Shown here: piece by piece, positions 56,058 to 58,526 of the stretch | Numbering within the stretch: position 1 is the stretch's first letter | Layout: each line of letters starts with the position of its first letter | Source of the DNA: an uncultured Candidatus Nemicrothrix sp. | GTDB taxonomy: Bacteria; Actinomycetota; Acidimicrobiia; Acidimicrobiales; Acidimicrobilacustridaceae | Assembly: GCA_903867185.1 (NCBI GenBank) | Contig: CAIPQK010000024.1 | Coordinates: forward strand, 1-64,000 | DNA: 64,000 bases | Direction: 5' to 3' | Notes under the pieces: model-generated | What the model saw: only the letters and a program-made list of their open reading frames with translations | Told to the model about the DNA's origin: nothing | Database searches by the model: none | Made by a program: the position numbers and the translations under genes

Positions 56058-56699
56058 ATGGCAAAGCCCCGATCTCCGAAGGGACGAGCGAAAGAAACCC
56101 TCGCCCGCCTCGACCTTGAGTATCCCGATGCGCAGTGCGAACTTGACCATCGCAATCCGTATGAACTTTTGGCGGCGACGATCCTGTCGGCACAGTGCAC
56201 CGATGTGCGCGTGAACCAGGTGACCCCGGCCCTGTTCGCACGATTTCCGAGCCCCGAGGATCTCGCGGTTGCCGATCCGATTGATGTCGAAGAGTTGGTT
56301 CGAAGCACAGGGTTCTATAAAAACAAAGCTCGTTCGTTAATCGGCATGGCCCAAGCGTTGGTTGAACGGTTTGATTGCGCGGTTCCTTCGGCTATGGAAG
56401 ATCTGGTCACGGTTCCCGGCGTGGGTCGTAAGACCGCAAACGTCGTACGCAGCGTGGCCATGGATCTCCCTGGACTTCCCGTTGATACGCACGTGGGTCG
56501 ACTGTCGCTTCGGCTTGGTTTGACCACCGAAACCGACCCCGTCAAAGTCGAATACGTGCTCGACGACATGATTCCGCCTGCCGATTGGGGACGATTCAGT
56601 TTGTTGCTGATCCTCCACGGCCGCCGAGTATGTGCGTCGCGAAAAGCGCGCTGCGTCGATTGTGTGCTCGCTGACTTCTGCCCGTCGGCGTCGATCTGA
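56058..56699 (+). CDS. nth: Endonuclease III
   Basis: The 213-residue base-excision repair glycosylase/AP lyase removes oxidised pyrimidines. It has the helix-hairpin-helix VPGVGRKTANVV with the catalytic Lys, the Asp in LPVDTHVGRLS, and the C-terminal 4Fe-4S motif C-x6-C-x2-C-x5-C in CASRKARCVDCVLADFC. The ATG at 56058 fits the family N-terminus. Nothing is co-transcribed downstream; a non-coding interval follows. Confidence 0.94.
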   Translation: MAKPRSPKGRAKETLARLDLEYPDAQCELDHRNPYELLAATILSAQCTDVRVNQVTPALFARFPSPEDLAVADPIDVEELVRSTGFYKNKARSLIGMAQALVERFDCAVPSAMEDLVTVPGVGRKTANVVRSVAMDLPGLPVDTHVGRLSLRLGLTTETDPVKVEYVLDDMIPPADWGRFSLLLILHGRRVCASRKARCVDCVLADFCPSASI

Positions 56700-56758
56700 A
56701 CGCGAAAATTGATCGAGATATCTGACGGTCAAAAGACACAGATCAAAAAGACCTTTGT

Positions 56759-56790
56759 CGCAAAAGTTGCGCGAGGAGATCACTTTTGCG
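56759..56790. promoter_or_regulatory. Perfect 9-bp palindrome upstream of the sRNA candidate
   Basis: CGCAAAAGT (56759-56767) and ACTTTTGCG (56782-56790) form a perfect dyad around 14 bases. It spans roughly -47 to -16 relative to the predicted sRNA start at 56806. No T-tract follows, so it is not a terminator of nth. It looks like an operator for a dimeric regulator; this is inference. Confidence 0.45.
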
Positions 56791-56805
56791 CGATAAGTTG
56801 AACGA

Positions 56806-56902
56806 GTCAGGCTCCCGCCGCCTGACACGGCGACAATCATCTGGGATCCGCCGCCCAGTGTCGCCTTGACGACGCCCCCTTGTGGGGCGTCGTCATCTTT
56901 TT
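56806..56902 (+). ncRNA. Small RNA gene candidate, two C-rich-loop hairpins plus terminator (6C-like)
   Basis: A TANNNT-type -10 (TAAGTT, 56794-56799) is followed 7 bases later by hairpin A, GTCAGGC/GCCTGAC (56806-56812 with 56820-56826, loop TCCCGCC). Hairpin B pairs GGCGACA (56829-56835) with TGTCGCC (56859-56865) and CTGGG (56841-56845) with CCCAG (56854-56858) around ATCCGCCG. An intrinsic terminator follows at once. The RNA would be about 97 nt and is not part of a coding frame. Two C-rich loops and the size recall the actinobacterial 6C RNA, whose loops pair with G-rich mRNA sites. The loops here are interrupted by G, so identity is not sure. Confidence 0.68.
56868..56902 (+). terminator. 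Intrinsic terminator of the sRNA candidate
   Basis: GACGACGCCCC (56868-56878) pairs perfectly with GGGGCGTCGTC (56884-56894) around a 5-base loop, followed by ATCTTTTT. It is one of only two strong intrinsic terminators I found in the window. It lies 169 bases after nth, which argues that it ends a separate short transcript. Confidence 0.92.
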
Positions 56903-56965
56903 GCGCCGATTCACGCGAGCAACAGACGGTCACAGCTGTCGCGATCGAAACTCCGCTGAGTCTGG

Positions 56966-56971
56966 AAGACT
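56966..56971 (+). promoter_or_regulatory. Candidate leaderless -10 AAGACT
   Basis: AAGACT ends 6 bases before the GTG at 56978. It is a partial match (A at position 2, T at position 6), with the same word and spacing as upstream of bpa. Confidence 0.35.
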
Positions 56972-56977
56972 GCGCCG

Positions 56978-57169
56978 GTGCATAGTGAACAAGCCCAGTT
57001 GTCGAGTGCAACCACATCGCTTGAGGAACTCCTCGAGCGGGTGACGTCCACGGCCGAAACGGTCTTAGCCGCCGGCGATGAATCGCTGGCCTCAGATTTG
57101 TTCGAGGTTGAGCGGTCGTTACGTACTGCGCACCGTCGCCTCGTGGCTGCAGCACGTCGGGCCCACTGA
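56978..57169 (+). CDS. Small helical protein, function unknown
   Basis: This 63-residue acidic protein starts with GTG and reads as one or two amphipathic helices: LSSATTSLEELLERVTSTAE, then SLASDLFEVERSLRTAHRRL. No signal peptide or membrane helix is visible and I know no family. Its helical heptad pattern, wobble-position GC like its neighbours and a -10-like AAGACT 6 bases upstream suggest a real gene. It stands alone between the sRNA terminator and hisD. Confidence 0.55.
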   Translation: MHSEQAQLSSATTSLEELLERVTSTAETVLAAGDESLASDLFEVERSLRTAHRRLVAAARRAH

Positions 57170-57207
57170 AACCGGTAAACCTCTCCGGTTCATGGCGGGC
57201 TGACCGC

Positions 57208-57221: not shown

Positions 57222-58526
57222 GTGTTGAACCGACTCGATCTCCGTGGAAGGAATGGCGACGAACTCGTTGCTGAACTCCCGCGTCCCGATCCGGGCGGCG
57301 AGGGTCCAACCGAAGCTGTTCGCGCGATCATCGCTGAGGTTCGCGCTGGCGGCGATTCGGCGATTCGATCTCTTACCGAAAAATTCGATGGCGTGAACAT
57401 CGCCGATTCGCGTGTTAGTCGTGAAGCGCTGTTCGAAGCACTCGCATCGATTCCATCGGAACTCGCCGACGCCTTGACCGAAGCCGCCGATGCGGTTCGA
57501 ACATTTCATGTTGCGCAACTTCGCGAGGAACACACCGTTGTTCGCGGAGGTATCAGTGTGACCGGGCGTTCCGTTCCCGTTGATCGTGCCGGTTGCTATG
57601 TGCCGGGCGGACGCGGGGTCTACCCGTCATCGGTCCTTATGACGGTTATTCCTGCCCGCGTTGCCGGAGTTCCCGAGATCGTCTTGTGCGTTCCACCCGA
57701 TCGCGAGACCGGAAAAATCGCGCCTGCGACGCTTGCTGCGGCCGCAATCGCTGGGGCTGATGAAGTCCGGGCGATCGGTGGTGCCCAGGCGATCGCCGCA
57801 ATGGCCTACGGGACCGAAACGCTTCGTCCGGTCGATGTCATCGCTGGTCCCGGTAATGCCTTTGTGGCCATTGCGAAACGTGAAGTGGCGGGGCTCGTCG
57901 GCGTGCCCATGGCGTTCGCTGGTCCTTCCGAAATCGTTGTGGTCGCCGATGCCACGGCTCCGGCTGATTTCGTGGCGATCGACCTCATGGTTCAAGCCGA
58001 ACATGGCCCCGACGGACTTGCGTGGTTGATTACGTGGGACGAAGGCGTTGCCGATGCTGTCGATGCCGCGCTCGTTCGACTTGTGGCCGAGGCATCACGA
58101 CGCTCTGAGATCGAGTCGACATTCGCCTCGGGCGGTTTCTGCGCGCTGGTTGATTCTCCTGAAGCGGCGATCGCCGTGGTGAATCACATCGCCGCTGAAC
58201 ACGTTGAGATCATCACTGCCGATGCTGCAGTCCTTTCCGCCGGAGTTCGTCACGCCGGTGCGGTGTTCCTTGGTCCGCTCGCACCTGCATCCATTGGCGA
58301 TTACGTGGCTGGTCCGAGTCATGTGCTGCCCACATTTGGCACAGCAAGATTCGGCAGTGCCCTCACTGTTGATGACTTCACCAAGCAGGTTCATGTTGTT
58401 GAAGTGACTCGCGCCGGATTCGACGCAGCAGCGCCAGTGGTTGCGGTAATCGCCGATGCCGAAGGTTTTGCGACACATGCCGAATCGGTGCGTCTTCGTA
58501 GCCGCGCACTCGAGGCTGAATCATGA
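57222..58526 (+). CDS. hisD: Histidinol dehydrogenase HisD
   Basis: The 434-residue enzyme performs the last two oxidations of histidine synthesis. Key segments are YVPGGRGVYPSSVLMTVIPA, GGAQAIAAMAYGTETLRPVD, IAGPGNAFVAIAKREV, IDLMVQAEHGPDGLAWLI with the metal/substrate Gln-His-Glu region, and GPSHVLPTFGTARFGSALTV. It is the first gene of the his operon and overlaps hisC by 4 bases. The GTG at 57222 is supported by TAGCGT upstream. Confidence 0.95.
   Translation: MLNRLDLRGRNGDELVAELPRPDPGGEGPTEAVRAIIAEVRAGGDSAIRSLTEKFDGVNIADSRVSREALFEALASIPSELADALTEAADAVRTFHVAQLREEHTVVRGGISVTGRSVPVDRAGCYVPGGRGVYPSSVLMTVIPARVAGVPEIVLCVPPDRETGKIAPATLAAAAIAGADEVRAIGGAQAIAAMAYGTETLRPVDVIAGPGNAFVAIAKREVAGLVGVPMAFAGPSEIVVVADATAPADFVAIDLMVQAEHGPDGLAWLITWDEGVADAVDAALVRLVAEASRRSEIESTFASGGFCALVDSPEAAIAVVNHIAAEHVEIITADAAVLSAGVRHAGAVFLGPLAPASIGDYVAGPSHVLPTFGTARFGSALTVDDFTKQVHVVEVTRAGFDAAAPVVAVIADAEGFATHAESVRLRSRALEAES

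Follow-up and report, generated by a model that had tools for sequence, protein, structure and literature searches.

A strongly supported gene for a small RNA (sRNA) of about 97 nt lies between nth and hisD in the 64,000-nt stretch of Candidatus Nemicrothrix sp. DNA analysed here (the window). The gene is order-wide in the Acidimicrobiales, which include the bulking-sludge filament Microthrix as well as abundant freshwater lineages; it is absent from Rfam 15 and ready for curation as a family. On comparative grounds it is near certain to be real. The original prediction of a free-standing sRNA gene is upheld by conservation of the promoter, the stems, the terminator and the loops, and by the fact that the unit remains intact after inversion or relocation. 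Comparison between genomes delimits the gene boundaries and the structure, and documents the invariant twin seeds, the conserved promoter and the autonomy of the gene from its neighbours.

The features of the locus are given in Table 1. The minimum free energy of the segment 56806-56902 is -56.5 kcal/mol, compared with a mean of -33.1 for shuffled sequences (z -6.9), and 0 of 200 shuffles were as stable. The layout proposed from the sequence, namely two hairpins with C-rich loops and a terminator with a T-tract, is correct base for base. In the DNA letters of the window (+ strand), the loop of hairpin 2 reads ATCCGCCG. From the nth stop (56699) to the small ORF that follows (56978), inspection of open reading frames found no plausible frame, as had been claimed for the sRNA interval. 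An antisense ORF (56337-57155, - strand) runs against nth and was not taken as a gene.

Table 1. Features of the sRNA locus and its neighbours (positions in the window).
Feature	Positions	Strand	Description	Basis
nth, upstream neighbour	56058..56699	+	endonuclease III-like	Pfam HhH-GPD 1.5e-24; conserved
-10 promoter box	56794..56799	+	TAAGTT, 6 nt upstream of hairpin 1	conserved in homologues
Predicted sRNA gene	56806..56902	+	~97 nt	covariance model R1 match 56805-56905, 104.6 bits
Hairpin 1	56806..56826	+	7-bp stem; loop UCCCGCC at 56813-56819	fold, covariation
Hairpin 2	56829..56865	+	outer stem, 5' bulge AUCAU, 5-bp inner stem; loop AUCCGCCG at 56846-56853	fold, covariation
Intrinsic terminator	56867..56902	+	12-pair stem 56867-56895, loop CUUGU; T5 at 56898-56902	fold, covariation
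ORF adjoining the sRNA	56978-57169	+	63 aa	conserved; no Pfam match
hisD, downstream neighbour	57222..58526	+	histidinol dehydrogenase	Pfam PF00815 3e-140; conserved

The sequence TAAGTT had been described as a -10-like box, and the homologues confirm this. In 78 of 90 members the pattern TAnnnT occurs no more than 20 nt before hairpin 1, at the same spacing as in the window, mostly ending 6-8 nt before the first base of the hairpin; in two control segments of equal length further upstream it was found in 4/90 and 3/90 members. Because the spacing of the -10 box is conserved, transcription is expected to start with the first base of hairpin 1 (~56806), and with the 3' end set by the terminator the length of the predicted RNA is ~97 nt. 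By sequence comparison, the unit has its own -10 box and its own terminator and is separable from its neighbours, and we infer that the sRNA is expressed.

The stems are well supported by covariation. The alignment contained 94 matches, of which 92 are distinct. Two of the 92, with the lowest scores (23.6 and 26.8 bits), are spurious second matches in loci L035 and L116. Among the 92 distinct aligned matches, at least one compensatory double-sided change was seen at all 29 model pairs, that is, at 7/7 pairs in hairpin 1, 11/11 modelled pairs in hairpin 2 and 11/11 in the terminator. Of the cells, 96.3% pair, versus 79.3% in shuffles, and the covariation score is 0.477 versus 0.154 in shuffles and at most 0.071 with slid partners. 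Fitting the alignment to the model makes the absolute percentages lean towards the structure; comparison with the slid partners is safer. Mean identity is 77-85% in the stems, 98% in loop 1 and 97% in loop 2. Of 90 distinct members, 84 keep CCCGCC in the first loop together with CCGCC in the second. Rather than being unbroken C runs, a point made in the original prediction, the loops are preserved as UCCCGCC and AUCCGCCG in nearly all members. Two loci (L122 and L135) have GUCCGCC in loop 1 and AUCCCGCCA in loop 2, resembling an exchange of the seed versions between the loops, and this fits with both loops reading one partner.

A BLAST search with positions 56740-56920 found a match in 45 of 99 relatives, including 19 of the 20 genomes of the same genus, with one copy in each; alignments to distant relatives centre on hairpins 1 and 2. 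An alignment and a covariance model (R1) were built from 40 of these 45 relatives, and the search with a new model from relatives, as had been proposed, found the RNA in 188 of 397 Acidimicrobiales genomes. The absence from about half of the genomes of the order is an upper bound on loss, as the filters were strict and some assemblies are incomplete. A phylum-wide sample of 396 genomes gave 14 R1 matches, all in Acidimicrobiales, and none in the sampled genomes outside this order. Among named GTDB records, 43 loci were accepted (43-106 bits), under the names Acidimicrobiales, Acidimicrobiia, Ilumatobacter, Candidatus Microthrix (placed in Acidimicrobiales by the NCBI taxonomy), or unresolved Actinobacteria/Actinomycetes MAGs. 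Exact-pattern matches in Streptomyces, Nonomuraea and other phyla were dismissed as chance, with R1 scores of at most ~21 bits against the 43-106 bits of the accepted loci. One record titled Bifidobacterium breve (CAMAYJ010000022.1, locus L235) has the sRNA at the same position as contig G002:C22 of the Acidimicrobiales, from the genus of the window, and is probably a mislabelled MAG.

The reading we favour, with moderate confidence, is that of an autonomous trans-acting sRNA with its own -10 promoter, whose twin seeds would pair with mRNA and whose family is found here only in Acidimicrobiales. Transcribed from that promoter, from the first base of hairpin 1 to the intrinsic terminator, the RNA would present two almost identical single-stranded seeds, CCCGCC and UCCGCC, each on an independent hairpin. 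Either loop would pair with G-rich sequences of the type GGCGG(G/A) in its mRNA targets, probably within or close to the ribosome-binding site (RBS), and thereby block translation. Such pairing and repression are suggested by the architecture, by analogy with 6C RNA (B11 in mycobacteria), whose name refers to its two stem-loops, each with six C (PMC4046766). In M. abscessus, a target is repressed by B11 via a six-G tract at the RBS; either C-rich loop suffices, and repression is lost only when both are mutated (PMC10470900). With the same build and different loop letters, the sRNA probably has a set of silenced messages different from that of 6C.

In a 323-kb genome sample the anti-loop motifs were not enriched at the RBS, with GGCGGG at 2 and GGCGGA at 1 of 289 gene starts, no more than in permutations. 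A reading by eye of anti-loop patterns before ATG in four genomes of the genus gave no clear common RBS target, and the pattern matches common to several genomes looked intra-coding by eye (e.g. argH-like). The gene purQ was rejected as a target, its site being present in this genome and not kept in the closest relatives, as was the hisD leader, where GGCGGG lies ~30 nt upstream of hisD in 13 of 81 loci and not at the RBS. A GGCGGG complementary to loop 1 occurs within 57165-57200 of the window, in a stretch conserved in part of the genus. The specific targets of the sRNA may be few, or its partner may be a protein.

The latter would make the RNA a decoy, with loops that bind an RNA-binding protein rather than mRNAs, as CsrB-type RNAs sequester CsrA. 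We regard this as rather unlikely. A pair of nearly identical loops that hardly vary, carried on covarying stems, would also serve a protein that recognises repeated hairpins, and the limited target search yielded no conserved mRNA target; however, that search covered a small part of the genome, the motif is present in two copies only, and the layout is that of 6C, which works by base pairing (PMC10470900). A further alternative, that the element is the nth 3' UTR, or a cis-regulatory leader for the gene that follows, and not a separate RNA, draws on its location. Across the Acidimicrobiales the conserved gene order is mshD-like (-), nth (+), sRNA, small ORF, hisD (+), and in most members the sRNA is directly 3' of nth and between nth and hisD. 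In three genomes, however, it is inverted relative to hisD (G096, loci L059/L094; G352, L070; G172, L087), and in G096 and G172 nth was confirmed to be on the opposite strand to it. Within the searched stretch around the sRNA, neither nth nor hisD is present in G042 and G167, and none of the five neighbours in G362 (L133). Because it can be inverted at the nth-hisD site and occurs elsewhere in other genomes, the sRNA is autonomous, since an nth 3' UTR or a hisD leader would not stay whole through moves of this kind. In addition, its conserved -10 box adjoins hairpin 1 and its terminator ends before the next gene. A UTR or leader is therefore very improbable, and the copies inverted relative to nth or away from it also make read-through from nth unlikely as the only RNA at the locus. 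The inverted copies in G096, G352 and G172 are at the same chromosomal place and apparently belong to separate families. The 63-aa ORF is on the + strand in the genus of the window; most of the other members have it on the opposite strand.

A divergent 6C RNA had been suggested as a possibility; in the simplest form of this idea the element would be the orthologue of the actinobacterial 6C (RF01066). In favour of this, it shares the hairpin order and the C-rich loops of 6C, being likewise a short intergenic RNA of Actinomycetota (~100 nt) with two loop-exposing hairpins and an intrinsic terminator, and R1 gives weak cross-matches on 6C loci. The search with RF01066 that had been suggested, on the other hand, reported no match at the sRNA even at E up to 10, and so did not reach the gathering threshold of 47 bits. 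Unlike 6C, the sRNA has CCGCC in both loops (UCCCGCC and AUCCGCCG) in place of a run of six C, its terminator loop lacks a C-run, and it was seen here only in Acidimicrobiales. Furthermore, it coexists with a separate 6C homologue in its own genome (G000:C112:21801-21879), and such homologues also occur in the close relatives G001, G009, G010, G016, G018 and G019. What survives of the proposal is the 6C design; orthology is improbable and largely refuted by the co-occurrence, while descent from a 6C duplication is possible. The best reading is thus that of a sister family or variant of 6C, and not the 6C of this genome.

The 6C homologue of this genome (L178) has CCCCCC loops in the first hairpin and in the terminator; its middle hairpin, unlike that of its relatives, carries CAGAACTTTGGTTCTG, with no C-run. 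The separate 6C loci of several genomes of the same genus have the hairpins TGGG-AATCCCCCC-TCCCA and CAGG-ATCCCCCCT-CCTG and a terminator loop CCATCCCCCCGG. They share with the sRNA the three-hairpin layout and, in hairpin 2, the outer stem, the 5' bulge and the inner stem GGG-AUCC...CCC. In five homologues (L043, L044, L046, L155 and L157) a C6 loop occurs in three places, including the terminator, and these too are below the RF01066 cut-off. The best RF01066 score on the 6C homologues of these genomes is 42.8 bits (L038), again below the cut-off, and for this reason the label 6C rests on their loops and layout. When R1 was run unfiltered on 14 C-rich RNA loci, the C-rich gene was the site of its best match in most of those with a 6C RNA, among them at least L160, L048, L043, L044, L046, L155, L157 and L047. 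These matches on 6C loci are weak (13-23 bits), with UCCCGCC aligned to UCCCCCC and GGGAUCCGCCGCCC to GGGAUCCCCCCUCCC.

The shared design with 6C is clear and common descent is likely; convergence of short C-rich hairpins could also account for the weak covariance-model similarity to 6C. Probably the sRNA family is paralogous to 6C, its two loops having changed jointly from C runs to CCGCC. More tentatively, a duplication of 6C followed by a switch of the loops in concert may have given rise to an order-specific family and to a second pairing code, used alongside that of 6C in one cell; if true, this would be a case of natural specificity switching in a twin-loop regulator. The pattern is one in which the stems drift and both seeds stay the same, while the seed differs between the sister families, and the presence of both RNAs in one genome is a comparison supplied by nature of the ways in which twin-loop sRNAs gain specificity.

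By the tests run, the family is new relative to Rfam 15, as no Rfam family reaches its gathering score anywhere in the window, and no paper on a regulatory sRNA of Acidimicrobiales was found in the open-access literature. Among known sRNAs, ar14 and other alphaproteobacterial sRNAs (RF02344) also repeat one C-rich, anti-Shine-Dalgarno-like loop on two or three hairpins, but they belong to another phylum and have CCUCC loops; RF02344 gave sub-threshold matches on the 6C homologues only, and none on the sRNA of the window. Matches to P37 and Pxr in a permissive Rfam search were rejected as sub-threshold chance. That to the Pseudomonas sRNA P37 (RF01678) covers the 3' side of hairpin 2 and the terminator at 20.2 bits, far under the gathering score of 50, and rests mainly on the terminator stem.
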